This document shows, in pieces, positions 16,832 through 61,920 of a stretch of DNA of 64,000 nucleotides. The notes under the pieces were generated by a model. It was not told the DNA's origin. It was given only the letters and a program-made list of their open reading frames with translations, and searched no databases. Positions within the stretch are counted from its first letter, which is position 1. Every line of letters begins with the position of its first letter. A program made the position numbers and the translations under genes. Source of the stretch: Tricholoma matsutake (Eukaryota > Basidiomycota > Agaricomycetes > Agaricales > Tricholomataceae). The stretch is from NCBI GenBank assembly GCA_026075535.2, contig AP026550.1, positions 5,208,001 through 5,272,000 of the forward strand, in the 5' to 3' direction.

Positions 16832-18016
16832 CGTCGCTCCTTGACTTGTTACAACCACCATAAACAGTGGTAAACACTCCTGCTCGATGTTGGTAGCAAC
16901 GTCGAGACTGCAATTCTTGTCCGATTTTCGATCGGATTTCACCATCACGAACGCTCTTGGCGTCTCCAGGCTTGCCCTGATTTGCTAAGTGATCTGTCCA
17001 TCCGATCCCTGGGGATGCCCCGGTCATTGTTTTTGACAATGGCTGCTATCTGTCTTGTTCTCCTGGGCTTCGAGGATCCTGACTAGGTGAGTGTTGTCTA
17101 TGAAAGACCATGTTTATTGGTACTGTCCGTACATCTGCCGTTCCCCCTGCAGAGAGGAACGCATGGCGCCAAATGGCCTGGGAGTTATTCATGACCACCT
17201 GGCGACTGTCTGAGACGATGTCGGTGGAACTAGCAGCTGTTCCGACACCTCTCGATCTCACGTCTCCGGCAGCCTTCTGGGCTTCCTATGCGGCAATGCA
17301 CACTGCTCAATCTGGGGAACCCTCGTCCCCAGCATGGCGCCGTCGTCCTCGAGGTCCTCGTGGACAGCAGTGCCGCAACTAGTACAGGGGCCTATCCCCC
17401 TCTACATTCACAGCCACCAAGCACCAATTGGTGGCCATTATCGGGATGGTGACATGGGGTCACCTCCCTATACCTTCCCCCCGCTGCGGGGGGGACGATG
17501 TCATCGAGTGCGTGCACTTGCTTGCATTTGCTCGAGGGGGGCCCCGGCCCCCCACTTACGGTGGTTACGGTGAATAACCAGGTGAACAACCATCCGCCTC
17601 GCTACTGTCACTCATGCACAACATGGTGATGGTCCACCTCACTCACCTGGGGTGGTCAATCCTCGCTGGCTGGAAATACGCAGACGGTTATTCCTCCTGC
17701 AAGGGGGGATTTACGGTGAATTAACACTGCTGTGCCTGGTCTGGCCTTGGTCGGACATGTGGCTGGGGGACCGTTTGCTCCAGGGGGCGATCTAATGGCT
17801 AGCTTCGGGAGGGGGGGCTCCCCCTCTGGATTATTGCCTTTCCTGGCTGAGAGGCCAACGTCTGTGGCACTGCCCGCCTAAAGTGGCTAAAACGAGGACC
17901 TGGGCAGGATATGGGCGAGGGGAAGCGTAGTTATAGTAGTACCCAAGTTTGTATCATGCTCCGCGGACTGCGATCGAGCCCTGCGTTATAAATTGTTGAC
18001 CCAAAAAAAAAAAAAA
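16832..18016 (+). mobile_element. N4: internally deleted family-N element
   Basis: Begins with the family terminus CGCTCCTTGACTTGTTAC at about 16834 and ends GTTGACCC plus A14 (18003-18016). About 1 kb is missing inside: the 5' UTR at GTCTATGAAAGA (17102) joins straight to CATGTTTATTGG in the coding region. The 3' half is normal. Both flanks are LINE-4, but no target duplication is seen and LINE bases are lost. Confidence 0.88.
17110..17382 (+). pseudogene. C-terminal half of the family-N protein in N4
   Basis: Reads MFIGTVRTSAVPPAERNAWR through MAWELFMTTWRLSETMS to the basic tail RRRPRGPRGQQCRN and a TAG stop. The N-terminal acidic and proline-rich parts were removed by the internal deletion. 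An ATG sits at the new 5' edge by chance of the deletion, so a 90-residue product is possible but there is no sign that it is used. Confidence 0.7.
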
Positions 18017-34453: not shown

Positions 34454-36648
34454 CGCTCCTTGACTTGTTACAACCACCATAAATAGTGGTAAACACCTCT
34501 GCTCAATGTTGCACGCGACGTCGACACTTCAATTTTTGTCCGATTTTCGATCGGATTTCGCCATCACAAACGCTCTCGGCGTCTCCAGGCCTGCCCTGAT
34601 TTGCTAAGAGATCCGTCCATCCAATCTCCGGGGATGTCTCGGTCATTGTTTCCAACAGTGACTGCTATCTGTCTCGTTCCCCTTGGCTTCGAGGATCCTG
34701 GCTAGGTGAGTGATGTCTATGAAAGAGTAGTCTGGGTCCCTATGGGGGCTTAGAGTGGGTGTGGGATGCCTGCTTCAATGCTCGCCCAAGTAGAAGTGCT
34801 CGTTTAGCTGGGGGAGGTCTGGCTTAGGGGGAAGGACGTTCTTACTGGACTGCTGGCTGTCTGGGAGGCTCCCAGCCTCCATGCTCTGTGAGTTTCTATT
34901 ACTAGAGACATGCTACACTGACTACCTGTTGGAATACACCATTGTTAAAAGGGGCCGGGCGATGGTGCCCCCTGACAGCTAGGTCGACGCTCTGGTGGCC
35001 GCTACTCACCACCAACCCTCTACCTCCGGTGCTCACTCTTCTAGGGTGTTATGACCCGGGTTCAGTCTTCTCCCACTGGGTGACAGGATGTGCGGCCTGT
35101 CCCCCCCTCGGAGCGTTTGGAGGCAGTATCAGGTGGACCCGGAATAGAGATAAGGGACCAACCATTATCGATGGCACGCTACGTATCTTGATTTCTACTA
35201 TCACCTACTAGCATTAACTTCCCCTCTCAATGCCTAAATGGCGAACCAGAGCCCAAACACCACGCTGGGGTCTACACGACCCCTCCCTGATTACGGGCGA
35301 CATCTATGACGATGGCGTCCAAGACTACGACACCCGGTACGATCAAGATGATCCGGATGTAGCTACTGCCCTACGGGCAGTTAGAGATCTATGGGCTGGA
35401 GAAGACCTCTCCGACCCTGAGGATGACGAGGACTCTCTTGCTATGCAAGAGGCCCTCAATTACGCTGAGAGCAGCCCCAAGCTGGCCTCGAGGCAAACGA
35501 TAGACCATGTGCTGTGGGCGCAGGACGTCCATGTCGCACATAAACGATGGACTCACAGGAGCTCGGCATGGCCGAGCTCTTCTATCCGGAGGCATCCCCT
35601 GCCCCATTACCGCCTTTGCCCCCCATCCCTGAGTTGGTGGAGGACGAAGTGCCGCTATCTGTGAATGACAGGTTGGAAATTGAAGCCACCTCTCATGCCA
35701 TGCTACACCAACTCGACGCGATGACCATGTTTATTGGTACCGTCCGTACATCCGCCGTTCCCCCTGCAGAGAGGAACGCATGGCGCCAAATGGCCTGGGA
35801 GTTATTCACGACCACCTGGCGACTGTCTGAGACGATGTCGGCGGAACTAGCAGCTGTTCCGACACCTCTCGATCTCACGTCTCCGGCAGCCTTCCGGGCT
35901 TCCTATGCGGCAATGCACACTGCTCAATCAGAGCCTCAATCTGGGGAACCCTCGTCCCCAGCACGGCGCCGTCGCCCTCGAGGTCCTCGTGGACAGCAGC
36001 GCCGCAACTAGTACAGGGGCCTATCCCCCTCTACATTCACGGCCACCAAGCACCAATTGGTGGCCATTATCGGGATGGTGACATGGTGTCGCCTCCCTAT
36101 ACCTTCCCCCCGCTGCGGGGGGGACGATGTCATCGAGTGCGTGCACTTGCTTGCATTTGCTCGAGGGGGGCCCCGGCCCCCCACTTACGGCGGTTACGGT
36201 GAATAACCAGGTGAACAACCATCCGCCTCGCTACTGTCACTCATGCACAACATGGTGATGGTCCACCTCACTCATCTGGGGTGGTCAATCCTCGCTGGCT
36301 GGAAATACGCAGACGGTTATTCCTCCGCAAGGGGGGATTTACGGTGAATTAACACTGCTGTGCCTGGTCTGGCCTTGGTCGGACATGTGGCTGGGGGACC
36401 GTTTGCTCCAGGGGGCGATCTAATGGCTAGCTTCGGGAGGGGGGGCTCCCCCTCTGGATTATTGCCTTTCCTGGCTGAGAGGCCAACGTCTGTGGCACTG
36501 CCCGCCTAAAGTGGCTAAAACGAGGACCTGGGCAGGATATGGGCGAGGGGAAGCGTAGTTATAGTAGTACCCAACTTTGTATCATGCTCCACGGACTGCG
36601 ATCGAGCCCCACGTTATAAATTGTTGACCAAAAAAAAAAAAAAAAAAA
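34454..36648 (+). mobile_element. N7: full-length family-N element in the Gypsy C LTR
   Basis: Flanked by gacatcgttcgt (34442-34453) and gacatcattcgt (36649-36660), a 12-bp duplication with one change, and a 19-A tail at 36630-36648. Same subfamily as N3 and N6. Confidence 0.93.
35230..36011 (+). pseudogene. Family-N protein in N7, 28-bp deletion
   Basis: ATG 35230 gives MPKWRTRAQTPRWGLHDPS and stays in frame to HVAHKRWT near 35552. There 28 bp present in N6 (gcagtctcgaacac...) are missing, between short repeats actcgcag/tcacag. The frame shifts and the old one stops at 35664. The correct C-terminal frame resumes at about 35553 with SQELGMAELFYPEASPAPLPP and runs to RRRRPRGPRGQQRRN at 36011. 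Apart from this slip the two halves are intact and very close to N6. Function unknown. Confidence 0.8.
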
Positions 36649-36847: not shown

Positions 36848-38493
36848 CTAAGGGTGCTCTGCTTCATATAGCGCCAGTGCTTCTGTTTCCAGAAGTTCTG
36901 ATCGTGGCAACCATAGGTCGTGTTCTGGTCTGTATCCCATCCATCTCACTAGGAATTGGTGGCCTCTCCCTCTAGGCCGACAATCAAGGATTTTGTCGAC
37001 GAAATATTCTGTACTTCCATCAATAGTGACCAGTGGCTTTGGAGGAATATGTGCCCACCCTGGGAAGAGGTCATCATTGTTAGGGATGTGCATTCGCAGC
37101 TGCGTGATGTGGAAGGTAGAATAAGCTTTGGATGGTGGCGGGAGCAAGAGTTTGTATGAGGAGGATTTGGGGAAGGCTTGCGTAATTTTGTACAGTCTGT
37201 CAAATCTTGGCATGAACTTGGCTACCCGTCCATCTTTTGCGCATATATAGTCCCTCCGTTGATGAGCTGTCGCGAGCATCACTTTGTCGCCTATTCCAAA
37301 TGCTGGTTCTGGGAGTCGGTCCTTGTTAGCAAAATGTGCTTGCTGGATCTTTGCCACTAAGAGATTATCTTTAGCCACATTAGTCTCTTCCTCCATGGCT
37401 TCAATGCATGTATGCGCTGCTGTGTCTTCATCCTGGATGCTTTGTGGTGTCTCATTTAATGGTGTTGTGATCAAGGGTGGCAATAGTTTAGGTGATCATC
37501 CGGTCTTCAGTATGAATGGTGAAACCCCGGTTGACGTGTTAGGAGTGTTCATGATATCGAACCTAACTTTTGGCAATGCCTTTACCCATCCCTTCTGGTT
37601 TTGTTCAACATGGAAATGCAAGCATTGCACCATGGTCTTGTTTGAGTGCTCTGAAGACCCATTGGTCTGTGGATGGTATGCTGTAGAAAGTTTGTGACTG
37701 ATACCCATGAGTTTCATGAGCGCCTTCCAGAATTTTGAAATGAAAAGTTTGTCGCAGTCACTGATAATCTCCACAGGGCATCCATTTTCGCAGTACCACT
37801 GGTTGAAGAAAAGGAACGTGAAGTCCTCTGTGGTCATGTTATTGTGACAAGGTACAATTTGTATATCAGCGCCCAGGCAGTCCATCATCGTGATGATGGC
37901 ATCAAATCCATCATCCTTTGGTAATGGCCCGACAAAGTCAATTGCAACCGAATCAAAGCGTTTGTCGGGGATAGGTAAGGGGTGCAGCAGTCCTGCTGTC
38001 TTGGATGTGAAGGATTTGTTCCGTTGGCAGTCTGCACACCCTGGGATGTAGCTGCGCCCCAGGTCTTGCTGCATGTTTGGCCAGTAAAATCATTGCGGAG
38101 GTTCACGTAGGACTTTTCTGTGCCAAAATGACCTAAGTTATCATGTGCCAACTGGAATAGTCGCTCCCTGAGGTTTTTGTATTTCAGGATCACCAGTCTG
38201 CTGCCGATGAAGAGGAGTCCATGTTGTAGTACAATGTTCAATTTGGTGTCTAGCATGCCTTGCTTTAGATCGTCGAGTATACCCAAACACCATGGGTCCA
38301 TTTGATAGCCGTTTTTGATACACATGATGAGTTTAGGGTCTGAGTTGATGGTGAACACTGCCAATGCTACAATCGCCGACGTGTCTGTGTCCACAGAGTT
38401 GGGAAGTCTAGATAATGCATCCGCGACAGTGTTCCATTCCCCGTTGATGTACGTGATGTTGTACTCATACTGGGATAAGTACTCCATCCACCT
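36848..38493 (-). pseudogene. Gypsy C integrase and chromodomain
   Basis: Minus strand. RNase H end and linker: MEYLSQYEYNITYINGEWNT, VADALSRLPNS (38487 down). H2C2 region LAHDNLGHFGTEKSYVNLR. Integrase core: VAIDFVGPLPKDDGFD (Asp), EIISDCDKLFISKFW (Asp), HPQTNGSSEHSNKTM (Glu), so the catalytic triad is intact. GPY-like ILKTG and KLLLPPPSKAYSTFHITQLR follow, then the chromodomain FVDKILDCRPRGRGHQFLVRWMGYRPEHDLWLPRSEL near 36870-36990. Frame breaks lie near 38080 and 37490. The upstream half of pol is at 48286-49740 beyond Gypsy B. Confidence 0.88.
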
Positions 38494-38858
38494 TGTTATG
38501 ATTTGTCATAACCCACGATGACCAGATGTATGCCAGCAAGGCTGGGTACTTTAATTTTTCCATTCGACTCGACTCACCTCCGACGGAAGACGCCTTGACG
38601 CATGGTGACTCCATGCATCCGAACCCACTCCCACATGCACCGTGGTACGACAACCCCTTTACATGAGGTCTGTGACATTGGATGCCTCATGCGTAGCATG
38701 AGGCTTATCTCTTATTGTTCTCTGACATGCTGCACTGCAGCACTCCGTGGCATTGGACGCCTCATGCAAGGCATGAGGCCTGTCTTTTCTATTGTTCTTT
38801 CTATTTATACTTGATAACAATCCTACATTCCAATTGGATGATAGACATCTTCGAACTG

Positions 38859-38866
38859 TATATAAG
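38859..38866 (+). promoter_or_regulatory. TATA box of Gypsy B
   Basis: TATATAAG, 32 nt upstream of tcagcttgacct, the segment that matches the priming site and is therefore expected to be the RNA 5' end. Confidence 0.7.
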
Positions 38867-38940
38867 CCGTAGTAATACTGTCTGTATTCCTCAGCTTGAC
38901 CTAATTCAACCAACGGTCTTAGACTCAACCAGAACACTCG

Positions 38941-39190
38941 ACAACTAAGGAAGTCCCTTAGTTGTGATACACTCGAACTCGACAGCTTAGGAAGCCCCTA
39001 GCTGTGATAACCCAAACTCGACAGTTGGAAAGCCTCCAACTGTGATACACAAACCGACGGTCTACTCAGAAAGCCTATGAGTACAGAAAGCCGTGACAAC
39101 TTGAGGAAGTACCCAAGCGAAGGCAGGAAGCCCAATACACTAGGAAAGTCTCCTAGTGCAATACGAGACAGTTGGAAAGCCTCCAACTGT
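38941..39190 (+). repeat. Array of AAGYC-pentaloop hairpins in the Gypsy B leader
   Basis: At least six stem-loops: 38941-38965 (10 bp, loop aagtc), 38982-39005 (9 bp with a bulge, aagcc), 39021-39043 (9 bp, aagcc), 39063-39083 (loop aagcc; perfect 8 bp in the 3' LTR copy at 48114-48134), 39138-39158 (8 bp, aagtc), 39168-39190 (9 bp, aagcc). A weaker one at 39100-39117 has loop aagta. Stems differ; loops are kept. Confidence 0.85.
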
Positions 39191-39236
39191 AACACACAAA
39201 GCCAAGGCTGAGTTAAAGACCTATAGTCTTAACAAA

Positions 39237-39248
39237 AGGTCAAGCTGA
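39237..39248 (+). promoter_or_regulatory. Gypsy B primer-binding site (self-priming)
   Basis: aggtcaagctga starts 2 nt after the LTR. Its exact 12-nt reverse complement is at 38891-38902 in the LTR. A palindrome cacctacctaggtg follows at 39260-39273. Confidence 0.8.
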
Positions 39249-39518
39249 TCTACGAAGTCCACCTACCTAGGTGCAGACACAACATCTTTCAGACAAAGCC
39301 CAGATAGACCTCCAACAGGAGCATCATCATCAGGAAGAACCCCATGGTATAGATACCAGGGTCGACTAGTACAATACTCGGAACCAGCACAGAAGTGGTT
39401 CTCAAAGAGAACCAGTGACAAAGAACCCCGATACCTCGACAAAGAGGATTTTAGATCCTTTGATACAGAAGAAACCCCAGAACGAGATCCATTCTCCCTA
39501 TCCAACGACAATGCCAAC

Positions 39519-40370
39519 ATGTCTACCGAACCCACCACATCAACCAAGGAGATCAGGATACGAACCCCCTCCGACTTCATGGGGGACCGAACTAGAACTG
39601 CGAAGTTCTTACAAGAAGTGAAACTCTATCTGAGAGTAAACCATGGAATCTACGACACAGATGAGAAGAAGATCATCTTCGTGTTGTCCTTCATGAACAG
39701 AGGAATGGCTGCACCCTGGGCACAGACTTGGGCAGAAAGGGAAGACCTAGGAACCTGGTCTACCTTTGAAGCCATGCTCAGGACAGCGTTCATGCCAATC
39801 GACAAAGCTGGCAGGGCCAGAACCAAGATGAAGACATTGAAACAGGGACAGGACCTGGAGGACTACATTGCGCAGTTCCGAATCCTGCGAGAGAAGGTGG
39901 GAATCAATGATGACACCGCCCTCATTGAACTCTTTATGGATGGGTTGAACCCCAAGCTCCTCGAAAGAGTCTTCAACATGGAAACAATCCCAACAACCTT
40001 GGAAGGAATGATCAACGCCGCCTCCAAGTATGATGGACAGTGGAGGAGAGCAAAATCCATAACAGGGAGGCTGCAGGAGGCTTTTACAAGGAAGCTCCCG
40101 GCCTCTAAGGCAAAGGAAACCCCACTCGAGATCAACCGCCTCTCCTACCAGGAGAGGATCAAACACATGAAGAAAGGATTGTGCTTTGTGTGCCACCAGC
40201 CTCGACACAGAGCAACTGAACACAAGAAAGGGGAAAAGAGGACCGAGGACCGGCCATCCCCAAAGAATAAAGGAAAAGAAGCCTACTCTAGGATCCGAGC
40301 GATCGTAGGAGAACTAGATGAAGAAGAAAAGAAAGAAGCTCTCGCTGCAATTGAGGACGAGGGTTTTTAA
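39519..40370 (+). CDS. Gypsy B gag (283 aa or longer)
   Basis: Capsid-type protein that packages the element RNA. From ATG 39519 it reads MSTEPTTSTKEIRIRTPSDF, then a capsid region FLQEVKLYLRVNHGIYDTDEKKI through MAAPWAQTWAER, DLEDYIAQFRILREKVGI and ALIELFMDGLNPKLLERV, and a zinc-knuckle-like CFVCHQPRHRATEH near residues 220-235 (last Cys replaced by His). The same frame is open upstream from 39249 and encodes WYRYQGRLVQYSEPAQKWF, also found in Gypsy A, so the natural start was probably further 5' and its ATG has been lost. It ends EDEGF-stop; the stop overlaps the slippery site used to enter pol. Confidence 0.85.
   Translation: MSTEPTTSTKEIRIRTPSDFMGDRTRTAKFLQEVKLYLRVNHGIYDTDEKKIIFVLSFMNRGMAAPWAQTWAEREDLGTWSTFEAMLRTAFMPIDKAGRARTKMKTLKQGQDLEDYIAQFRILREKVGINDDTALIELFMDGLNPKLLERVFNMETIPTTLEGMINAASKYDGQWRRAKSITGRLQEAFTRKLPASKAKETPLEINRLSYQERIKHMKKGLCFVCHQPRHRATEHKKGEKRTEDRPSPKNKGKEAYSRIRAIVGELDEEEKKEALAAIEDEGF
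40361..40367 (+). promoter_or_regulatory. -1 ribosomal frameshift site of Gypsy B
   Basis: GGGTTTT, read as G GGT TTT in the gag frame and followed at once by the gag stop TAA. Pol is open in the -1 frame from here (GFLKRWP...SVLLATLKNQSM). Gypsy A has the same site at 56348-56354. Confidence 0.75.
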
Positions 40371-45722: not shown

Positions 45723-47965
45723 CATCGCTCCTTGACTTGTTACAACCACCATAAACAGTGGTAAACACTCCTGCTCGATGTTGGTAGCAACGTCGAGACT
45801 CCAATTTTCGTCCGATTTTTGATCGGATTTCACCATCACGAACGCTCTCGGCGTCTCCAGGCCTGGTTTGATTTGCTAAGAGATCCATCCATCCGATCTC
45901 CAGGGATGTCTCGGTCATTGTTTCCAACAGTGACTGCTATCTGTCTCATTCCCCTTGGCTTCGAGGATCCTGGCTAGGTGAGTGATGTCTATGAAAGAGT
46001 AGTCTGGGTCCCTATGGGGGCTTAGAGTGGGTGTGGGATGCCTGCTTCAATGCTCGCCCAAGTAGAAGCACTCGTTTAGCTAGGGGAGGTCTGGCTTAGG
46101 GGGAAGGACGTTCTTACTGGACTGCTGGTCGTCTTTGAGGCTTCCTGCCTCCATGCTCTGTGAGTTTCTACTACTAGAGACATGCTACACTGACTACCCA
46201 TTGGAATACACCATCGCTAAAAGGGGCTGGGTGATGGTGCCCCCTGGCGGCTAGGCCTACACCTTGGTGGCCGCTTCTCACCACCATCCCTCTACCTCCG
46301 GTGCTCACTCTTCTAGGGTGGTATGACCCGGGTTTGATCTTCTCCCACTAGGCAGCAGGATGTGCGGCTTGCTCGCCCCCTCGGAGCATTCGGAGGCTGT
46401 ATCGGGTGGACCCGGAATGTAGATAAGGGACCAGCCGTTATCGATTCCACGCTGCGTATTTTGATTCTTACCATCATCTACTAGCACTAACACACACTCT
46501 CAATGCCCAAACGGCAAACCAGAGGCCAACCACCACATCGGGGTCTACGCGACCCCGCTTTGATCACGGGCGACATCTTTGATGATGGCGTCCAAGACTA
46601 CGACACCCGGTTCGTGCAAGACAAATCGGAGGTAGCAGCTGCTCTCAAGGCAGCTAGAGATCTATGGGCCGGGGAAGACCTCTCCGACCCTAATGATGAT
46701 GATGACGACGACTCTCTTGCCATGCAAGAGGCTCTCATTTTCGCCGAGGGGGGGCCTAGGCTCTCCTCGAGGAAAATGATCGATCGTGTACGATGGGCAC
46801 TTGGTGTCGACGTCGAACACAAGCGCTGGGTTCGTAGCCTCCCAAAGGAGGATATATATTCACAGGAGCTCGGCATCGCTGAGCTCCTTTATCCGGAGGC
46901 ATCCCCTGCCCCGCTACCGCCTTGGCCCCCCATCCCTGAGCTGGTGGAGGACGAAGTGCCGCTATCTAGGGATCAGAGGTTGGAAATCGAAGCCACCTCT
47001 GATGCCATGTTGCATTTACTGGACATGATGACCTCCTTTGTAGGTACCGTCCGAGTGTCCGCAGTTCCTCTCAACAACAGGAACTCTTGGTGTCAGATGG
47101 CGTGGGAGCTCTTCACCACCACCTGGCAATTTTCAGGGAGCATGATGGAGTCGCTTTGCGCGGCATCAGCTCCCCTTGACCTTACGTCTCCGGCAGCCTT
47201 TCAGGCTTCCTATGCGGCGATGCAGGTGGCTCAGTCTGCTCCACCAGCGGCAGAGCCTCCAACTGAGGAACCCTTGTCCCCGGAACGGCGTCGTCGTCCT
47301 CGCGGGCCTTGCCAATGACCACGCCGAGCTTGAAGAAGGGGACCCCCCCTTCTCTTCACTGCCCACCAGGGCTGTTGTCGGGATGGTGACAATACGTCGC
47401 CGCCCTCTACTTTCCCCCCACTGCGGGGGGGATGATGTCATTGAGTGCATGCTCAGAGTAGCATACGCTCGAGGGGGGGCTTTGACCCCCCTACTTACAG
47501 TAGCTCCGGTGAATAACCAGCTATGGCAGTTCCGGTGAACAACCAGCTGCCTCGTCACTGTCACTTGTGCGTGGACACAGTGATGGTCCACCTCACTCAC
47601 CTGGGGTGGTCAATCCTCGTTGTCTGGTGAAAGACGGTTACTCTTCCCGCAAGGGAGGACTTACGGTGAATTGACACTGCTTGCGCCTGATCTGACTTTG
47701 GTTGGATATGTGGCCGGGGGGACCGAGATAGCACCAGACGGTGAACTAACAGCTAGCCTTTGTGGGGGGGGCCCCTCCCCTACAGATTATTGCCTTTCCT
47801 GTCTGAGAGGACAATGCTGGTACGCCCGCCGTAACGTGGCTTCTGCAAGGGACCTGGTGTGGGATGCGGACATAGGGAATGCGTAGTCTTAGTAGTACCT
47901 TGTTTGTATCTTGACCCGCAGACTGCGATCGAGCCCCACGTTATAAATTGTTGACCCCAAAAAAT
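45723..47965 (+). mobile_element. N8: full-length family-N element in the Gypsy B LTR
   Basis: Flanked by the 13-bp duplication ggtcttagactca at 45710-45722 and 47966-47978. The tail is very short (six A). Same subfamily as N5. Confidence 0.94.
46503..47318 (+). CDS. Family-N protein (271 aa), intact, N5/N8 subfamily
   Basis: One open frame from ATG 46503 to TGA 47318. Start MPKRQTRGQPPHRGLRDPAL, acidic DPNDDDDDDSLAMQEAL (about residues 60-78), WALGVDVEHKRWVRSLPKED, proline-rich PAPLPPWPPIPELVEDEVPL (about 133-152), helical WCQMAWELFTTTWQFSGSMM (about 195-215), C-terminal PERRRRPRGPCQ. Relative to the 25532-26329 protein it has longer acidic and alanine/proline stretches but the same order of parts. 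A stop that seems to be a CGA-to-TGA change may shorten the basic tail (N5 continues QRPRRA). No catalytic motif. Role unknown; it travels in an element that shares only its 3' end with the LINEs. Confidence 0.75.
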   Translation: MPKRQTRGQPPHRGLRDPALITGDIFDDGVQDYDTRFVQDKSEVAAALKAARDLWAGEDLSDPNDDDDDDSLAMQEALIFAEGGPRLSSRKMIDRVRWALGVDVEHKRWVRSLPKEDIYSQELGIAELLYPEASPAPLPPWPPIPELVEDEVPLSRDQRLEIEATSDAMLHLLDMMTSFVGTVRVSAVPLNNRNSWCQMAWELFTTTWQFSGSMMESLCAASAPLDLTSPAAFQASYAAMQVAQSAPPAAEPPTEEPLSPERRRRPRGPCQ

Positions 47966-48285
47966 GGTCTTAGACTCAACCAGAACACTCGACAACTAAG
48001 GAAGTCCCTTAGTTGTGATACACTCGAACTTGACAGCTTAGGAAGCCCCTAGCTGTGATAACCCAAACTTGACAGTTGGAAAGCCTCCAACTGTGATATA
48101 CGAACCGACAGTCTACTCAGAAAGCCTCTGAGTACTGAAAGCCGTGACAACTTGAGGAAGTACCCAAGCAAAGGCAGGAAGCCTGATACACTAGGAAAGT
48201 CTCCTAGTGCAATACGAGACAGTTGGAAAGCCTCCAACTGTAACACACGAAGCCGAGGCTGAGTTAAAGACCTATAGTCTTAACA

Positions 48286-50861
48286 CACCTTGCCTGGCGC
48301 TGAGATAGGTCCCTTTGGAAGTCGAAGTTTTGTAATGTCTTGTGGTCTGTGCAGATGTGAATATGTGAACCTAGTAAGTCAACCCACCATTTCTTTAAAG
48401 CTCGCATAATTGCCAACATTTCTTGCTTGTGTACTGGGTAGTTGCATTCTGCACCATTCATTTGTCTACTCTCAAACGCTACTGGACCCATGGATTCCCA
48501 GCATGGTCCAAAGGAGAGCACTGCTCCCGTTCGTCTCTTGCTTGTGTCACAGGTTACAAAAATCTTGTTCTCTCCAGGGTTTTCATGGTCAATTGTTGTC
48601 AAACAATCTCTTCCGATTATGAGTTGTTTTATGTTATCGAAGGCAGCTTGGTGATTACAAGTCCAGGTAGGGAACGTTGAGTTGCATTCTTTATGAGTGA
48701 GAGGTGATAGCACTGCAGTGTATTCAGCTAGTGTAGGAAGAAAGGATGTGATGTAGCGGACGAGCCCTAGGAATTGGTGTACATGTTTTGCTGATTTTGG
48801 TGCCGGCCAGTTTAGAATCCGTAAGACTTTAGACTGATCAGCTTCGATACCCCATGCTGAAATGTGGTGACCCAGGAAGTCTATGTCTGTGGTGAAGAGT
48901 GTAGATTTCTTCAGCAAGCAGTACAAGTGCACGCCACATAATGCTTCCAGTACCAGCTTCACATTCTGTTTATGTTCCTCCAGCATGTTAGACCAAATGA
49001 TAACGTCGTCAAGATATACATGACATATCTTTCTGATTAGATGTTTGAGGGCGAGGGTAACCCACCTCTGATGTGTTGCTGGTGAGTTTCGCATGCCCAT
49101 GGGCATGACTACCCATTCCCAGAGACCGAATGGAGTAAGGGTAGCTGTGTATTTGATGTCGTCCGGGTGAACAAGGGTCTGGAAAAATGAATTAGTCATG
49201 TCTATTTTGCCCCAGATTTTTCCTTTAGCGCAGTCCGCCAGAATGTCGTCAATCCGTGGAAGAGGGTAGTTATCTGGAACAGTCAGTTGATTCAGGTGAC
49301 AGTAGTCATTCACCCATTGGGGGAGTACAGTTGGGTTGGCCTTTGGAATGATGAATGATGGCAATGCATAAGGTGAAGAAGACGGCCGAATGCGACCTGC
49401 CACAATGTGCTGGTCAATTAGAGTCTTCCAGCCTGTTCAATACTTTCATGGACATCCATATGCATGTGAGATGGATACTGGAGCACCAGGGAGCAGTTTG
49501 ATGTGGTGGTATACCTCGCGAGGGAGATCTTTGATGTGGGGGATGTCCGAGGGGAAGCGGTCTGCGAATGTGTCTTTCATTTGATTATCCAGCTTTCTCA
49601 GCGTTGCTTCTCCTGCCAATTGTGTGATCCGTGTTTTGATTGTTGCGATGATGTCAGGTGGACCAGTAGTGAAAGCTGTCATATCAAAATGTTCTGGATT
49701 TTCCTCAAAAAGCGCCGTTAACTCCATGTGTACAAGAACTCAAGTTTTCTTGGCCTTGCTCTGCCCTGCTCTAATTTGCTGAGCCTCAAGCTTACGATGT
49801 TGAGAAGGAGGTTTCATAATTGCTTGATGGTGCAGTTTGGGATCAGGGGGGTTCAGTAAGTCATATCCTGACTCCTTTGCAATAACGGTTCGCAATTCAG
49901 CATCGACAACTATTTTATTTTTCATGAGAAAATCTAGACCGAGTATCAAGTTGGTGTGAAGGCCAGGACAGATAATTGCGTTGAGAACATGGGAGTGCCA
50001 GAGAGAGTCTTGAGACTGGATCGATAATCTACAATAATGAGTTAATACAAGCGGGGTTCTTGCATTGTTCTTCTTAGTGAAAGCTCTGGAAACAGAAAGC
50101 GGTTTGAACAGAGGTCTTGTGGTGAGGCATAATATGTCAGCGAGTTTGCTAGAAATCAAGACTGGCAAAGATCCATGGTCAATTAGCGCGTTAACGGGAG
50201 TAGCAGCACAGGTAGCTGGAGCATCAACACAGCATGTCCAACAAAGGTGTTGAGGAAGGGCAAAAGGCAAAGTCACGTACTCTTTGACCTCATTAGCATC
50301 TGCATAGTCTTCCAAGTCTCTGTTACTCTTGCTACCTTCAAAAACCACGTCTGCCTCGAAAATGGCAGCGACGGTGGTCGACGCCGCGTGTGTGGCAGCT
50401 TGTATCTTGTCATAAGCAGCTTTTGCCTTGGCTGCATTCACCGCCGTCACCTGCTTGCAATCTTCCAGGGTGAGCCGGGGGTTGGTACAGTTCTGTCCAA
50501 GGTGACCTGCATAAAAAACGCGACACTTGTAGCACCTGAGGTACTGTCTCAGGAGAGTTTTCTCATCTTTAGTGAGCAGTTTGAGAGGTGTGGTGTGGGT
50601 GACATTTGGAGGAGCAGGGGACATGGTGATGGTGATGCTGATGTTCTGCGCTGACGAGTCTCGTAAGATGTTGCCAGCTTTTGCAGCGCAGGAGACCCAT
50701 CCAGCACGGCTCGCTTGCAAATCCTGCTCTAGAAGAAGAAGCCATTCCATCCAATCCTCAAAATCTGTAATGGCGTCGAGGGTACCCTTTGTGGCTCCAG
50801 GTGCGATGCCATTGTTGGCTTTGTAAAGTCGTTTCCTTCCATCAGAGAGATGAGGAATCAA
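48286..50861 (-). pseudogene. Gypsy C gag C-terminus, protease, reverse transcriptase, RNase H
   Basis: Minus strand, continuing gag in the same frame. A zinc knuckle CYKCRVFYAGHLGQNC lies near 50490-50540, protease VNALIDHGSLPVLIS with the Asp kept near 50190 and LILGLDFLMKNKIVVD at 49930. RT from 49403: RIRPSSSPYALPSFI, WVNDYCHLNQLTVPD, KIDMTNSFFQTLVHP, MGMRNSPATHQRW, catalytic HVYLDDVIIWSN (about 48995-49030). RNase H: IFVTCDTSKRRTGAVLS, MLAIMRALKKW, ICTDHKTLQNF. It breaks at SQRQAR where Gypsy B is inserted. In-frame TGA codons at 49738, 49444 and 49435 stand at arginine positions (KT-stop-VL, CP-stop-KY-stop-TG). Otherwise the frame is whole. Confidence 0.9.
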
Positions 50862-52129: not shown

Positions 52130-52774
52130 ATGTATTCCTCATGTTTTATTTCCTTTTTAGTGTCACTTCTCCCAAACATATATAGCCCTGTACTAGCTAC
52201 TTAGAAAGACAGAATATATCATCCTCTCACACCAATTGTCTGATTTAAGAGCCATTCTCTTGAGTCCAAGCATCTCGACTTAGTCTCAAAGTTCAGTGTT
52301 TTACATCAAATTTCCTCAAACTCCTTGTACTAGCTTCTGGAAACTATTGCATATCATCTATCCCCTCTCGACACCTTTCTACATCCCTATAGTCTATCCT
52401 CAGCCATCGTCGAAAGCATCCTTGTCTTCTATAAAGTCCTTCAAACTACTTCGAACATCATCGCACCTTGTCAAACTACTTCAAACTTCATTGCACCTCT
52501 TTGTACACTCCCGAACTTCATTAAACTTTCCCTTGAACATCATCACAGCACTTTGTACGCTTTCTATCTTTATTGAACTTCTATTGGACATCATCGCAGC
52601 ACTTTGAATACTCTTGAACTTCATCGAACTTCATCAGATACCCTCTAGAGTCATTTCCATAGCCTTGGGTAACAGCAGTGATATTTAGTACCACCTTGCA
52701 ACCTTCCTCTAACTAGTGTTATACCATTTGAGCCCTTATTGTGGGTTTTGTTTGGGTTTCCTGGTCAAGTATCA

Positions 52775-54490: not shown

Positions 54491-54876
54491 TGTTACAATT
54501 TTCCTTGTAACTCATGGAACCCGACCGACCCAACCAACCCAACGATCCCCTCCAGACAGGAGGCACTCCATGATTCATGCCTAGGGCATGTCCTTGACAC
54601 CAGACACATGCACGACACATGCCGACTGCATGCATTCGATCCCCTTCCCATGGAAGGCACCCTTGACACATGGTGACTCCATGCACCCGAACCCATGCTG
54701 TGATACAACAGCCTCTTGACATGAGGTCCATGATGTCGGACTCTCACGATCGACATGCTGTGCCGCAGCATGTCCTTGACATCGGACGCCTCATGCAAGG
54801 CATGAGGCCTATTGTTTCTATTCTTACTTGATGCACATCTATCTTTCCGATTGGATGATAAGGACCTCCCTCATAG

Positions 54877-54884
54877 TATAAGTA
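54877..54884 (+). promoter_or_regulatory. TATA box of Gypsy A
   Basis: TATAAGTA, 33 nt before the self-primer segment tagtttagat. The same pair is at 62359-62366 and 62392-62403 in the 3' LTR. Confidence 0.65.
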
Positions 54885-54968
54885 CTACAACTCATAGTAG
54901 GGATGTCCTTAGTTTAGATTTAGGCAATCTACAGCTTTAACTTGTGAACTTGCGAACTTACTCGAAAC

Positions 54969-55099
54969 CACTAAGGAAGCCCCTTAGTGCATGAACCTGA
55001 ATGACTCTATGCAGAAGGCCTGCTAGAGTGCACTATCTCTCTTACGTCAGATGCTCCAAGTAAGGCTAGTGCCAAACGACTTGTCGAGGAAGCACCTCG
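54969..55099 (+). repeat. Pentaloop hairpins in the Gypsy A leader
   Basis: 54969-54989: CACTAAGG/CCTTAGTG with loop aagcc. 55004-55029: ACTCTA plus GCAG paired with CTGC plus TAGAGT, loop aaggc, one bulged T. 55085-55099: CGAGG/CCTCG with loop aagca. Same loop class as Gypsy B, unrelated stems. Confidence 0.75.
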
Positions 55100-55148
55100 T
55101 CAAATGACATTGACTAGATCAAGTGGTTGAGGCTTTGCCCTTAACATA

Positions 55149-55160
55149 AGATCTAAACTA
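55149..55160 (+). promoter_or_regulatory. Gypsy A primer-binding site (self-priming)
   Basis: agatctaaacta, 2 nt after the LTR. It is the exact reverse complement of tagtttagatct at 62392-62403 in the 3' LTR (10 of 10 first bases also match at 54910-54919 in the 5' LTR). A palindrome cacctacctaggtg follows at 55171-55184. Confidence 0.8.
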
Positions 55161-55192
55161 TCTGCTAGCCCACCTACCTAGGTGTAGGCAAT

Positions 55193-56357
55193 ATGTCTCA
55201 ATACACACCACAACAACCTGGGTCTAGACAAACCCCAGACTGACCACCAAGAGAAGCAGAACCACAGCCAGGTTCGTCTTGGTACCGATACAACGGAAGA
55301 CTAGTCCGTTACTCGACCCCAGCACAGCGTTGGTTCTACAGATCAACTGACAGACAATGAGGAGACTTCCTCACCAACAAAGACTTTGAACAACCGCACA
55401 CCCCCACCCAAAACATCCACCCGCTTCTTAACAGACAAAACCGACGACCTCTATAATGAGATGTCCAAACCTGCAACCACACCGATGACGTCCATGAAGG
55501 ACATTTGAATCCGATCACCAACAGACTTCTCAGGAGAGCAGACCAAGACTGCCAAGTTCCTGCAGGAGATAGACCTGTACCTGTGAATCAATGACCAGGT
55601 CTATGACACAAATGACAAGAAGATTATCTTCATGCTGTCCTTCATGAATGGAGGGACAGCAGCTGCCTGGGCGCAGGCATTTGTCAACCAGCACCAGTCT
55701 GAGGGACTAGGTGAATACGCAGACTTCTGACAGAAGGTCCTAGAGGCCTTCTCACCAATCGACGACACCGGAACAGCAAAGACTGAGATCAAAAATCTCA
55801 AACAGGGTTCAGGGAACCTCGAAGAATATGTGGCGAACTTCCGCATCCTGAAAGACAGGACGGGAATCACAGAAGACACAGCCATGATCAAATATTTCAT
55901 GGACAGACTGCACCCCAAATTACTGAAGAGGGTACATACAATGGAAACAGTACCCAACACTCTTGAGGGCTGGATAAAGGCAGCCTCAAAATATGAAGGC
56001 CAATGGAAACGGGCCATGGCAATCCTGGGGAAGACCAGGCAGAACCAGAAGATAAAGGAAACAATGAAGAAAGGACAGCCCTCTCTTGACATCAACCGAC
56101 TGATGAACCAAGAATGCATGGAACACCTCCGAAAGGGACTGTGTTTCATCTGCCACCAACCCGGACACTGATCGTCTGATCACAAGGATGGAAAGGACCC
56201 CACCCAGACGGGGTCAGCGCCTCCTCCTTACCGAAACCGCTTCACCCAGAAAAAGACTGGGGTGGACACCTACCAGAAGATCCGCACAATGCTGGATGAA
56301 CTAGATAAAGAAGAAAAAGAACGAGCCCTCAACCTCATGAAGGAATTGGGTTTTTAG
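55193..56357 (+). pseudogene. Gypsy A gag
   Basis: ATG 55193 opens MSQYTPQQPGSRQTPD; the N-terminal part holds SSWYRYNGRLVRYSTPAQRW, shared with Gypsy B and fragment A2. A 2-bp deletion relative to A2 near 55400 shifts frame. The main capsid part begins MSKPATTPMTSMKDI at 55461, with FLQEIDLYL, YDTNDKKIIFMLSFMNGGTA, LEEYVANFRILKDRTGI and YFMDRLHPKLLKRVHTME. A knuckle CFICHQPGH...SSDH lies near 56140. TGA replaces arginine at five or more sites (for example KDI-stop-IRS, YL-stop-IND, DF-stop-QKV, GH-stop-SSD). It ends ELGF-stop at the slippery site. Confidence 0.88.
56348..56354 (+). promoter_or_regulatory. -1 ribosomal frameshift site of Gypsy A
   Basis: GGGTTTT (G GGT TTT in gag frame) directly before the gag stop TAG. 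The -1 frame is open to pol and encodes GFLEQRPDTTP...SVLLATMNRQSM, which aligns with the same stretch in Gypsy B. Confidence 0.75.
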
Positions 56358-59300
56358 AACAGCGGCCTGATACGACGCCAGTCACCGCTGTAGTCTCCCT
56401 AGGGTCTGTACTCTTAGCTACCATGAATAGACAATCTATGCACCTGTCTATTTGGGTAGCTGAGTCAGACAATGGGAAAGACGTCGCAACAAATGCGCTC
56501 CTCGACTCTGGAGCAGGAGGAGTCTTTATTGACTCGAAATTTGTTGAACGAGAAGGGATCAAGACATATCCCTTAGGCTATACCATCCGGGCCACAAATG
56601 TAGATAGAACCCTGAACAGACAGGGAACAATCACAAGATATGTGAAAGGGAAACTCCACATCAATGGATGGAGCTGCCCAATGGAATACCTAGTCGCTGG
56701 ACTAGGCAAGGAATCGGTAATCCTGGGCCTGTCATGGCTGCAGGAGGTGAACCTGATCATTGACTGGAAGAAGGGAACTCTTGAGTTCCGAGATGAAGAA
56801 CGATGGGCTCAGATCAAACGAATCTTGGAAAAGACAAGAAGAGCCAAATGGGCCCTCCCAAACACTCTAAACCTTCCTAGGGTAGATGCCGAAAGGGAGG
56901 TGCCAAATGACAGAATGGCACGAATTCGACGCATCGTAGCCAAGACGAGACAAAGACTCTCCGAAGAAAAGAAGAGAAACCTTGCTCGAGCACGACTAGC
57001 CATGGCAAAGACGAGAGAAAGGCTCGCTGAAGAAAAAGAGAGGAGCCTTGCCCAAGCCCGATTGGCCATGGCAAAAACAAGAGAAAGGCTTTCAGAGAGG
57101 AAAGCAAAAGAACTAAATTCTGTCCAGATAGCTGTCGCAAAAACCAGGAGCAGAAACACTCCTAAAGAACCCAGGAACCTCGAAGCAGCACGACGGGCCG
57201 TTGCCAAAACCCAAGAGAACCAGAAGAAGAAACAACTGGAAAAGGGTAAAGACAATGAATGCGACAGGACACGACGAATTGTACAAAAGATGAAGGAATT
57301 GCTAAACTCCACAGGGGAGGGAAGCACTGGCAAAAGGAATGTGAAAACGACACCACGAAACAGGACAAATGACCCTCGACAGAAGACTACCCCAACCCAT
57401 GATTATAGGACCCCAGATCATGGTACCATCAACGCTGAAGTACCTATACCCAGGGAAACTCCCCCTCAAGTAAAGGTCAAAGAAGTACCAGATGAGGAAC
57501 TACTGGCAGACACTGGCATGGAAATACGAGTAATGGAAGAAACCCATGAACAAGATGCGACAGACCTCCTGATTGCATATGTACGAGGAGAACCGGTCAT
57601 TGGCATATTCGAACCACCAGAAGAACCACCCCTCACCAAGGAACACCGAGGACCGACCCATACATACATATGGAAAACGAACACGATCTCCAGGATTACG
57701 AAAGCCAAGGACTCCCCACAATATGTATTCTCAAAGAGCGCATGGATCAGAGCAAAGACATCCATTTCCCAGCGACTCGCGCATGAACAAGACGAGGGAA
57801 GGGAGGCCAGCAAACAGACCCTGGATGACCTACTGCCACCAGAATACCAGAAATACAGACAGGTATTTGAAAAAGCTGCATCTGAACGATTCCCGGAATC
57901 AAGACTGTGGGATCATGTGATTGATCTGAAGGAAGGCTTTGTACCGAAGGATTGCAAAGTCTACCCATTGACGCCAAAAGAACAAGAGAAACTCAATGAG
58001 TTTCTAGATGAAAACCTGGAGAAAGGATACATCCGACCATTGAAATCACCCATGGCATCCCCGTTCTTCTTCATGTCGAAGAAGGACTCCGATGCTCTAT
58101 GACCTTGCCAAGACTATCGCTATCTGAATGAAGGAATGATCTGGAACAACTACCCCCCGCCACTGATCAGAGACCTCTTGGACAAGCTGAAGGGAGCGAG
58201 ATTTTTCATGAAACTTGATATTCAATGGGGATATCATAATGTACAGATAAAGAAAGGAGACAAGTGGAAGGCAGCATTCAAGACTAACTGAGGGCTATTT
58301 GAGCCAATGGTGATGTTCTTTGGGCTGTGCAACTCACCGGCAACATTCCAGGTGATGATGAACGATCTCTTCTGAGATATGCTGGATGAAGGATGGCTCG
58401 TCATCTATATGGACGACATCCTGATCTTCTCGAAAACGGAAGAAGAACACTGGATAAGGACCAAAAGGGTCCTCAAATGACTATGACAATGCAATCTCTA
58501 CCTGAAAATAGAGAAGTGCAAGTTCAACGTGCAAGAAGTTGACTTCTTGGGTATGATTGTCAGGCCCAACGAACTTGCAATGGACAACACAAAGCTGGCT
58601 GGGATCAAGGACTGGCCCATGCCAAAGACAGTGAAAGATGTAAGATCCTTCCTAGGATTTGGAAACTTCTATTGACAATTCATCAGACACTTCACGGATC
58701 TGGCCAGACCGCTAGACAATGTGACAAAGAAGAACCAGAAATTTGAATGGATGAATGACTGCCAGCAGTCGTTCAATGCGCTAAAAAGGAAGTTCAATGA
58801 AGCCCCAGTACTGCTGATGCCAGATGCAACGAAACCATTTGTGGTGGAATCTGACGCCTCAAAATTTGCGACAGGCACAGTACTCAGACAACAGGATGCC
58901 AACGGAGACTGGCACCCATGCAGCTATATCTCGCATTCTTTCAATGAAGCGGAAAGAAATTACGAGATATATGACAGGGAACTACTGGGAGTGATCTGAG
59001 CGCTAGAGACATGGAGACACTACCTACAGGGGACGCCGTTCCCTGTGACGGTACTGTCCGATCACAAGAACCTGACGTACTTCTGTCAGCCACAGAAACT
59101 AAACCGACAACAGGCTAGATGGGCCATTTACTTGTCACAATTCGACCTGAAGCTACAACACGTACCAGGATCACAGATGGTACAATCTGACGCCCCATCG
59201 AGGAGAGCAGATCACATAGCTGAAGAAGACACCGATAACGAGGACAAGACCATCCTCGCTGACGAACTGTTCATCAAAATGATCGACACTGAGCTCCAGG

Positions 59301-60765
59301 GAGCCCTGGTCTCAGCAATAATGAAGGACAACCTTGTAAATGACGCTTTACGAGCCCTGAAGAACAATGGAACCCCCCCAATCAAGTCTGCATTGGAGGA
59401 CTGGAAATTTGAAGATGGCCTGCTCTTTTTCAAAGACAGGTGCTATGTGCCACAGGACGAAACCCTCTGCCAAGCAATCATATGGAAATACCATGATAGC
59501 ATCACGACAGGACACCCTGGACAATGGCAAACAATTGAACTGATCCAACGAGACTACTGGTGGCCAGGAATGACCAACTTCATAAAGAAATACATCGAAG
59601 GCTGCACAAAATGCCAGCAAATGAAGATCAACACCCACCCGATGACCCCACCCCTGACACCAATATCATCCAATGCCAGCAGACCATTTGAGCTGGTAAC
59701 GACAGATTTTATTATGGACCTGCCCATAATAAATGGATTTGACTCAATCATGGTCGTGGTAGACCATGGTCTTATGAAGGGGGTAATTTTTATCCCTTGC
59801 ACAAAGACAATCGACGCACTTGGCGCTGCAGACCTCTACCTGTGCCATGTGTACACAAGATTTGGACTCCCCGGAAGAATCATCTCAGACAGAGACCCTC
59901 GATTCACATCCAAACTCTTCCAAGAACTCGGACGACTGCTCGGAATCAAGCTATCCATTAGCACCGCCTATCACCCCCAGACCAACGGAGAAATGGAGTG
60001 AGTAAACCAAGAGCTAGAGGTTTACCTCCGCATGTTCTGTTCGAACAAACCCGAAGATTGGGAGCGTTATCTCCCAATGGCAGAATTCATGCACAACCAG
60101 AAGACGCACTCCGCAGTAAAACACTCACCATTTTACTTAATGATGGGATATCAACCACGTGCTATCCCCACCCCATATGAAAAGATGAACGTGCTGGCCA
60201 CCAAACAGAGAATCCAAGGACTTCTCTCTGCGAGAAGGAAAGCTCTTGCCGCACACGAACTAGCCAGACAGGCTATGGCTGCCCAAATGAAAGGGCGATA
60301 CGAACCATTCAAGGTTGGAGAACAAGTATGGCTTGACTCCAAGAACCTGAAGATTGGCTACCCAATGAGAAAACTGGTGCCAAAACGAGAAGGGCCCTTT
60401 GTGATTGAAGATGCCTTGTCGAGAACAACATACCGATTGAAGATGCCTTGTTGAGAACAACATACTGATTGAAACTGCCGCCGAGATGGAAGATCCACCC
60501 AGTGTTCCATGTGGCTTTACTCACGCGATACCATGAGAATGACACTCACGGGCAAAACTTCCTGACTCCACCACCTGACCTTGTGGAAGGAGAAAACGAA
60601 TATGAAGTGGAAGCGATCATCGCACACAAGAAGCATGGCAAGACACGCCGTTACCTTGTGAAATGGGTTGACTACCCGACATCTGAAAACACATGGGAAC
60701 CCAAATCAAACCTAAAGAATGCCCCCGAGATCCTGACGGCATATAAGAAGAGGTACCACCTCTGA
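56354..60765 (+). pseudogene. Gypsy A pol: protease-RT-RNase H-integrase-chromodomain
   Basis: Protease LLDSGAGGVFIDSKF (56500-56540) and VILGLSWLQEVNLIIDW. A long spacer (56800-57340) repeats RARLAMAKTRERLAEEK-like units, three or more. [32 protein letters not shown], catalytic [10 protein letters not shown] (about 58405-58435). RNase [25 protein letters not shown]2C2: HDSITTGH...CTKCQQMK. Integrase: VTTDFIMDLP, IISDRDPRFT, HPQTNGEME (D, D, E kept). Chromodomain YEVEAIIAHKKHGKTRRYLVKWVDYPTSENTWEPK (60600-60720). Eight or more TGA codons replace arginine between 58100 and 60002. A 32-bp tandem duplication at 60411-60474 shifts frame just before the chromodomain. Confidence 0.92.
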
Positions 60766-60812
60766 TGGAAACCCAAAACCCCCCCTCTCTTCCCACAACG
60801 ACACTCCCCAAT

Positions 60813-61538
60813 ATGCCTGCTGAACGATGATTCACCCGAGAATACCTATGAAACCGATTGAACGCTGACACCCTTCGCATTCACCTCGCCCACGATCCAC
60901 CGAAATACCATCTAGCCAGGATGTGCTTCTACTATGCGAGCACTATCAAACAGATGGAATGAAATCTAGAAGAAGCAATGAATGATGCAGATGCCCTGGG
61001 GATTGAGCAAACGATCCAGGAAATGATTGCACCGCAGTCAGACAGACTGAGAACAGCTGAGGAGAGACCTCACACCCCTTTAGGTCAACACAGATGACCA
61101 CCGACCTCGCCCTCGCCATTCAGCGAGTGGAGCAACAGAGATGAATGACGAGCTCCCTCTGGAGACTCCTCCCATTCTATGAAGAACCCTAAGATTGTGC
61201 CTAGGGCACCTGAAGTAATCGATCTGACCACCCCCGAACCTGAACCAAAAACCACCCAACCGCCTTGGTCCCCCCCACACATGAGACATGCCAGATGTTT
61301 CATCTGCCAAGAGATAGGCCATTTTGGCCTGATTTGCCCACAATATATTTGCAAGTATTGCAAACAGTGAGGCCCCGGACACTATAGGATGAACTGCCCA
61401 GAGAAACCTTGGAAGGATCGAGAGACTGATCAAAAAGAAGCCAAACACAGACAGCAGCTCTTCTTTAACTCCGGATACGATGATTTTGATGACAATGTGA
61501 TGGGAAATATGACAGGAGAGCCATATGGAAGGATTTAA
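60813..61538 (+). pseudogene. Gypsy A accessory ORF: double zinc-knuckle protein
   Basis: A single frame of 241 codons from ATG 60813 to TAA 61536-61538, broken only by about six TGA codons, several next to CGA codons and at likely arginine positions (AER-stop-FTRE, YL-stop-NRL, QME-stop-NLE). N-terminal part is helical (NADTLRIHLAHDPPKYHLARM, EAMNDADALGIEQTIQEMI). An acidic linker VIDLTTPEPEPK leads to two knuckles: CFICQEIGHFGLICP (CX2CX4HX4C, about 61297-61340) and CKYCKQ-stop-GPGHYRMNCP (CX2CX6HX4C). The end is acidic (GYDDFDDNVMG). It is separate from gag, whose own knuckle lies 5 kb upstream. Not recognised as any known Gypsy domain; an RNA-binding or silencing-related role is speculation. 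Confidence 0.7.
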
Positions 61539-61577
61539 AAGGTGGAGCTCAAGACGATGGCATGACAAGACAGACCC

Positions 61578-61796
61578 ATGCTCGCAGGAATTACGATCCT
61601 TGCCATCGTCATTGGCATGACCCTGGCTGTAGCGGCAGCCCTAACCTTCGCATTTTGCCTCTACACCATCTTCCGAACAGAACCTGAACCCCCAATTACA
61701 GACGTTGCATTTGCCATCCTGCAACGCCCCCCTTTCAATGATACTACCGACTCCTTGACACCGCTACCTAGGGCAGCACGAACCAGAAGAACCTGA
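61578..61796 (+). CDS. Gypsy A small membrane protein (72 aa)
   Basis: Begins MLAGITILAIVIGMTLAVAA 39 bp after the zinc-knuckle stop and in the same phase. Residues 3-31 form one long hydrophobic segment, ending CLYTIF. A positively charged residue follows (FRTEPEPP) and then a polar tail of about 40 residues ending PRAARTRRT. So it looks like a single-pass membrane or signal-anchor protein. It sits where env lies in env-carrying Gypsy elements, but it has no ectodomain, glycosylation pattern or furin site, so calling it env is not justified. It has no internal stop, unlike every other ORF of this element, though it is short. Confidence 0.5.
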   Translation: MLAGITILAIVIGMTLAVAAALTFAFCLYTIFRTEPEPPITDVAFAILQRPPFNDTTDSLTPLPRAARTRRT

Positions 61797-61920
61797 TCAT
61801 AGTCCGAGTTCGGACATGAATTATTCCTCCATCATACCCCTCAACCCTGACCCACCCACGCCTGATCAGACCACAAAGGAGAGACGAAGATTTAGGTCGA
61901 AGTGTGGAACTTTCGACCAT

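Follow-up and report, generated by a model that had tools for sequence, protein, structure and literature searches.

Introduction

How LTR retrotransposons choose the RNA that they package is poorly known, and to our knowledge no LTR retrotransposon features a packaging signal in which several stem-loops offer one motif to one capsid protein. For Ty1, the packaging signal lacks a precise definition so far, as stated in an excerpt of PMC8396678. The concept of stem-loops that share a loop and serve one capsid protein is already known from alphaviruses and hepatitis B virus, whose packaging signals are described as several stem-loops with one loop motif and one capsid protein (PMC8233893 and PMC7612645, respectively). 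Both differ from the array presented here, which is clustered and a candidate signal: the alphavirus signal lies in the coding region of the virus, employs another motif, has a demonstrated function and bears no relationship to the array, while the signals of hepatitis B virus are dispersed over the genome and were studied in vitro.

In retrotransposons of the Tf1 type (Tf1, Tj1), the primer-binding site (PBS) is complementary to the 5' end of the element's RNA, and RNA structures let both pair (excerpts of PMC7175516 and PMC4600332). A hairpin of Tf1 matters whereas its loop sequence does not, according to a passage of PMC5445492. The element described below resembles Tf1 and Tj1 in that its PBS complements the RNA 5' end, predicted in our case, but differs from them by an array of hairpins with a fixed loop, which is absent from the consulted passages of PMC7175516, PMC4600332 and PMC5445492. 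Fungal LTR elements with a hairpin where the 5' LTR ends also include the GalEa Copia elements, in which it is called the Conserved Hairpin Site. However, this is one hairpin directly after the LTR, with conserved arms and the loop as its least conserved part, hence the reverse pattern, and no self-primer was found in GalEa elements, as far as the excerpt of PMC5445492 reports. Finally, marY1 is likewise a Ty3/Gypsy element of Tricholoma matsutake; its LTR of 426 bp and total length of 6,047 bp, as printed in a passage of PMC10211490, set it apart from our element with its LTR of 741 bp by these lengths alone. A search of the open full-text literature by titles and the beginnings of abstracts, with most subscription journals outside its reach, yielded no description of such an array among the matches listed.

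Structure of the element and its predicted self-primer

The window, i.e., the whole analysed stretch of 64,000 nucleotides from T. matsutake, harbours a Ty3/Gypsy element, referred to as family B, with the following features outside the hairpin array:

38489-38493 and 48286-48290, target-site duplication CACCT on both flanks of the element
38494-39234, + strand, 5' LTR of 741 bp (TGTTA...TAACA) with a TATA box at 38858-38866, followed by R-U5
38891-38902, + strand, predicted RNA 5' end and self-primer TCAGCTTGACCT, a perfect 12-nt complement of 39237-39248
38915-38927, + strand, 5' side of closing stem S, with 99.0% of cells paired in 65 copies
39209-39221, + strand, 3' side of closing stem S, the long-range partner of 38915-38927
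39237-39248, + strand, PBS AGGTCAAGCTGA, 2 bases beyond the LTR end
39519-40370, + strand, gag ORF (PF03732), whose product has a single CCHH-type Cys/His knuckle
47958-48285, + strand, second half of the 3' LTR, in which the array recurs, its hairpins located at 47992, 48072, 48114, 48189 and 48219

The 3' LTR starts at 45261, is preceded by a purine tract and is split between 45722 and 47958. An insert of about 2.2 kb within this LTR (45723-47957) carries an ORF of 271 aa at 46503-47318. The Pfam domains occur in the order of Ty3/Gypsy elements, namely Gag (PF03732), protease (PF08284), RNase H of RT (PF17919/PF17917) and the zinc-binding domain of integrase (PF17921), while the rve core remained under the Pfam cut-off and the stretch of the RT core lay outside the scan. 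The Gag knuckle of the window element is present as a single copy of the form CX2CX4HX4H; a CCHH knuckle is also found in P0001-P0005 and P0010, while the distant relatives P0011, P0012 and P0019 feature CCHC.

The PBS adjoins the 5' LTR and is complementary to the predicted 5' end of the RNA, as in elements of the Tf1 type. This complementarity extends over 10, 12, 11 and 10 nt in the four divergent B copies L101-L104, and self-priming of the Tf1 kind is well supported by the sequence. With regard to a tRNA-type PBS, inspection by eye revealed no TGG at the LTR junction of either family B or its sister family X, which is treated below.

The gag frame remains open for about 90 codons 5' of the ATG at 39519 (39249-39518) and contains no in-frame AUG in the copy of the window. 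The upstream extension is kept in family X as WYRY.GRLV.YS.PAQ.WF. One in-frame codon (39282-39284) reads ACA in the window, and among 44 B copies it is ACG in 32, ACA in 6, ATG in 5 and CCG in 1; the matching codon of 12 X copies is ACG in 5, ATG in 4 and ACA in 3. Since both ATG and ACA are products of CpG decay of ACG, this distribution suggests that Gag may use a non-AUG start. Given this kept extension with its in-frame ACG, and given that from 38891 onwards a single AUG precedes 39344, located at 39077 and created by an A that breaks one of the hairpins (H4), the structured, AUG-poor leader might control translation by steering ribosomes to the non-AUG start of Gag. Such a function would require neither a fixed pentaloop nor repeated units, and we regard it as a very unlikely account of the array.

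The hairpin array in R-U5

Between 38941 and 39190, eight stem-loops follow one another, six of them strong and two (H5 and H6) weaker:

38941-38965, + strand, H1, 10 bp, an extra unit carried by 30 of the 65 rows; loop AAGTC in 28 of these
38982-39005, + strand, H2, 9 bp with one bulged T; loop AAGCC
39021-39043, + strand, H3, 9 bp; loop AAGCC in 62/65
39063-39083, + strand, H4; loop AAGCC in 64/65, stem interrupted in the 5' LTR by the A at 39077
39100-39117, + strand, H5, weaker, with a bulged A; loop AAGTA in 60/64 and AAGCA in 3/64 rows with letters
39122-39132, + strand, H6, weak, 3 bp
39138-39158, + strand, H7, 8 bp; loop AAGTC in 59/65 and AAGCC in 4/65
39168-39190, + strand, H8, 9 bp, stem identical to that of H3; loop AAGCC in 62/64, missing in L104

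An earlier note on this DNA had announced six good stem-loops within 250 bp, each with an aagcc or aagtc loop, and H1-H4, H7 and H8 agree with it in number as well as in loop sequence. The difference that it saw between the two LTRs in H4 is also real, as the 3' copy (48114-48134) pairs perfectly over 8 bp and the stem is intact in most other copies, too. Its placement of the array in the leader needs correction: the hairpins are part of the LTR and belong to R-U5, which is why both LTRs carry the array.

In a hairpin search with free choice of the loop, performed on 60 copies, AAGCC or AAGTC was found in 264 of 330 hairpins. Most of the remaining 66 lie outside the array, and the next classes were AGC (36) and ACCTATAG (11) at the PBS and the LTR end. 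The array consists of several stem-loops with a common loop motif and with stems that vary yet stay paired, and in the strong hairpins, as judged by eye, the stem top has a purine on the 5' side and a pyrimidine on the 3' side. By eye, too, the loop AAGCCU could pair with AGGCUU of U3.

Folding of the region is stronger than expected by chance, with z = -5.9 for 38900-39250 and z = -8.1 for 38893-39248, and in each case none of 100 shuffles folded as well. The antisense strand folds nearly as well (z = -8.0), and folding energy alone can therefore not distinguish the strands. When no structure was given, RNAalifold recovered the same main hairpins from 65 aligned rows except for H1, which is lacking in 35 of these rows and for this reason drops out. 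Rfam yielded no match in the window at the gathering score.

The loop is more telling than the clustering. On the + strand of the 64-kb window there are 45 perfect hairpins with a stem of at least 7 bp and a 5-nt loop, 11 of which display AAG[CT][CA]; all 11 reside in LTRs, four in the 5' LTR and five in the 3' LTR of the element and two in the sister element, and the - strand of the window contains no perfect hairpin of this loop type. The two arrays comprise 4 and 5 perfect hairpins (stem of at least 7 bp, loop of 3-9) per 260 nt, compared to a maximum of 2 in 20 mononucleotide shuffles. Nevertheless, clustering alone is the weaker argument, because two copies of one G+C-rich sequence (17312-17553 and 35941-36182) also reach four perfect hairpins each, with unrelated loops, and because the window as a whole is rich in hairpins, with 122 of them versus 14-28 in shuffles.

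Copies and subfamilies in the genome

The T. matsutake assembly (13 contigs, 161,040,721 bases) was searched on the DNA level with the array of the window and with a divergent array, and in each search 40 candidates were scored, out of 1073 and 1089, respectively. An alignment of 65 rows was assembled from 30 loci of each DNA search, the locus L055 from a pattern search and four loci retrieved via gag. It comprises 30 rows of subfamily I, 8 of subfamily II and 23 of subfamily III in addition to the divergent L101-L104. Subfamily I possesses both H1 and H2, while the first unit of subfamily II is H1-like and its H3 is altered, and the first unit of subfamily III is H2-like. The number of units varies by copy: 30 of the 65 rows have the additional unit H1, L104 is devoid of H8, and some genomic copies contain neighbouring H7- and H8-like units 32 bases apart.

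A pattern of H7 with fixed flanks and loop and a free stem gave 640 matches genome-wide, as opposed to 14 when the pattern was reversed, and the corresponding numbers with H3 were 882 and 6. Among 51 of the 640 H7-pattern sequences that were read, 46 pair at all eight positions when G-U is counted, four miss one pair, and one misses four; the latter was taken as a chance match and left out of the event counts. A first pattern in which the stem ends were fixed was abandoned: it hit 28 places, and most of the ten that were folded turned out to be unrelated sequence, although L044, L045 and L055 had arrays and L056 a partial one. A search of viral contigs with the Gag alignment returned 245 stretches that fit a pattern, none of which encodes a relative.

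Covariation and constraint

Over 76 pairs in the 65 rows, 98.7% of 4571 cells are paired, compared to 98.2% after shuffling. Two-sided changes affect 8 pairs (36 cells), where 3.8 pairs (12.5 cells) are expected and none of 500 shuffles reaches 8, although these numbers are no probabilities, since the shuffles ignore relatedness and the structure was taken from one row. When the partners were slid by 1-3 columns, at most three two-sided pairs emerged. The seeming covariation of an outer stem around H4 (39057-39094, + strand) was discarded as what looks like independent CpG decay on each side: its states CG 27, TG 19, CA 11 and TA 8 come close to the expectation for independent decay. Without this stem, which accounts for 2 pairs and 10 cells, six pairs and 26 cells are left, two pairs each in H2, H3 and H7. 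In H2 they separate subfamilies, and in H3 they occur in the 8 rows of subfamily II, where the change, common to all eight rows, may stem from exchange with another unit. The cleanest case is H7 in L101 and L103, where a C-G to G-C flip is accompanied by a G-C to A-U change, so that the arms read CAGTAAGA/TCTTACTG versus CACTAGGA/TCCTAGTG, while one copy on chromosome 1 displays the C-G to G-C flip only. The two-sided changes are few events, seen in several rows. A comparison of paralogues, in which 44 of 44 stems were paired, was set aside, as these stems had been chosen as perfect, which makes the figure a result of selection and no test.

Minor-allele cells in subfamily I amount to 4.7% in linkers and 0.4% in stems. 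This roughly tenfold difference in young copies arises from the CpG sites, which are located in the linkers, and had to be dropped as evidence for constraint: after removal of these sites, variation is found at 9 of 94 sites in stems, 10 of 91 in linkers (p = 0.81 for stems versus linkers) and 3 of 26 in loops, which gives no sign of extra stem constraint within subfamily I. As most copies presumably decay neutrally, young copies neither demonstrate nor exclude constraint in the active lineage. With all 65 rows and CpG sites removed, minor letters make up 3.5% of cells in linkers, 1.4% in stems and 0.8% in loops, and in III-type rows 1.2%, 0.3% and 0.6%, respectively; these percentages lean towards constraint, with subfamilies pooled in the 65-row figures. 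The loci L001-L030 and L059-L088 exhibit strong decay focused on CpG sites, as in methylated repeats.

With regard to the earlier note, whose interpretation is partly supported, the absence of covariation that was to speak against its idea is not what the alignment displays, given the excess of two-sided pairs over shuffles that disregard relatedness. Its picture of variable stems below a fixed loop applies between subfamilies, where pairing is kept and loops are mostly AAG-Y-C/A; within subfamily I, stems vary as often as linkers after removal of CpG sites. A rough count by eye of sites changed between B subfamilies gives about 2 of 30 for loops and 12 of 106 for stems, i.e., rates that do not clearly differ. 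What speaks for the loop is the comparison of the hairpins with one another and with family X.

Part of the array has arisen by tandem duplication, as the TRF periods of 38 and 41 bp indicate, so that the identity of the loops is partly inherited and the argument from identical loops is weakened accordingly. A non-adaptive explanation starts from a single hairpin that underwent tandem duplication; the arms would stay complementary through arm-templated repair or through template switching while the RNA is reverse-transcribed, and the loops would resemble one another by descent. The identical stems of H3 and H8, the neighbouring extra units in some copies and the lack of extra stem constraint in subfamily I after CpG removal are all consistent with it. 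It leaves unexplained, however, why loops stay alike while stems diverge and why a parallel layout with different sequences exists in family X, and we consider it clearly unlikely.

One-sided changes in the strong stems comprise 15 G-U pairs, 9 A-C pairs and 11 transversion mismatches, i.e., no clear excess of G-U. This lack of a clear difference between G-U and A-C, together with the nearly equal fold of the antisense strand, would also accord with a host factor or a role on the DNA level, the array being a Dicer substrate, a target of a host RNA-binding protein or a set of DNA-binding sites downstream of the promoter. A DNA-binding dimer would, however, need fixed half-sites, whereas the arms of these hairpins vary without loss of pairing, and altogether we deem such roles most improbable.

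The sister family X

Family X was found through a genome search with the Gag relative P0005 and is represented in the window by a second element:

about 54491-62628, Ty3/Gypsy element of family X, self-primed by sequence, with a shorter hairpin array of its own
54910-55160, + strand, leader of family X with the self-primer at 54910-54921 and the PBS at 55149-55160
54969-54989, 55004-55029 and 55081-55103, + strand, hairpins of family X

Perfect hairpins of the form gcctcatgc-NNN-gcatgaggc occur in the U3 of both families (38684-38704, 38759-38779 and 54788-54808). Tandem repeats of 30 and 51 bp at 52441-52632 are perhaps located near the 5' end of a Gypsy element on the minus strand, whose reading frames flank them.

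Sixteen stretches upstream of gag matches comprise 9 with the X array, 4 with the B array and 3 with neither (L093, L095 and L100), though L093 and L095 contain the X leader further down. The X self-primer TAGTTTAGATCT and its PBS AGATCTAAACTA are complementary over 12 nt in 6 of 9 copies and over 9 nt in two, while no such match was found in one. The first hairpin, CACTAAGG-AAGCC-CCTTAGTG, is still similar to H1 and displays AAGCC in 10 and AAGCA in 1 of 11 copies. X2 has a bulged stem and the loop AAGGC (7/11) or AAGCC (4/11), X3 has a different loop, and X4, which H5 of family B resembles, has AAGCA in 11/11. AAG-Y-C/A is accordingly not universal, the exceptions being X3, H6 and the AAGGC form of X2. 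Closing stem, self-primer and PBS of family X are unlike those of B in sequence but the same in layout, and the fold of the X leader (L096) reaches z = -6.9. Layout and loop type are thus kept while most helices differ in sequence. No other observation argues as strongly for the importance of both RNA fold and loop, but the comparison covers two families, related ones from a single genome.

In both families the primer/PBS duplex and the closing stem flank the array, an arrangement that would also suit a mere scaffold: by compacting R-U5, the hairpins would bring self-primer and PBS together and allow cleavage by RNase H, like the structure near the primer of Tf1, with the loops left unread, just as the loop sequence of the Tf1 hairpin is without importance in the passage quoted above. 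For this purpose a single hairpin would seem sufficient, however, and the recurrence of AAG-Y-C/A on different stems in two families finds no explanation, so that a scaffold alone appears unlikely, though worth serious consideration.

Proposed reading and significance

The reading that we favour, with confidence slightly short of even, is that R-U5 of a self-primed Ty3/Gypsy element carries loop-specific hairpins as repeated binding sites. One protein would bind all these loops; the most likely candidate is the Gag that the element itself encodes, which would contact them with its only Cys/His knuckle. This reading draws on features discernible in the sequences themselves, namely the complementarities, the pairing, the compensated changes between subfamilies and the layout of the sister family with other sequences. 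According to it, the RNA 5' end would fold back onto the PBS just beyond the LTR (12 bp) and a second long-range stem would close R-U5, inside of which a row of hairpins of 8-10 bp would present the pentaloop AAG-Y-C/A on stem tops whose 5' arm has purines and whose 3' arm has pyrimidines. Each such loop exposes one G, and retroviral nucleocapsids favour exposed G in loops. Several weak sites could then confer avidity and thereby selection of the element RNA for packaging, while the fold would keep primer and PBS together. Because the sites would be interchangeable, the number of units could change by tandem gain and loss, and the stems would be free to drift as long as pairing lasts.

In its most specific form, which is possible but rather doubtful, the array would constitute an expandable, clustered packaging signal of loop-specific Gag-binding hairpins in the R-U5 of self-primed fungal retrotransposons. 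Its units would be interchangeable, their loops being recognised by a Gag with one knuckle, and it would have been kept across the divergence of families while primer, PBS and closing stem have changed. Several hundred genomic matches (640 for the H7 pattern) make the family a natural collection of variants that differ in stem, loop and number of units. Binding rules could be derived from these genomic variants and then examined with short RNAs and a single recombinant protein. If true, the self-priming RNA fold, as known from Tf1, would moreover gain a further layer through the loop-defined array.
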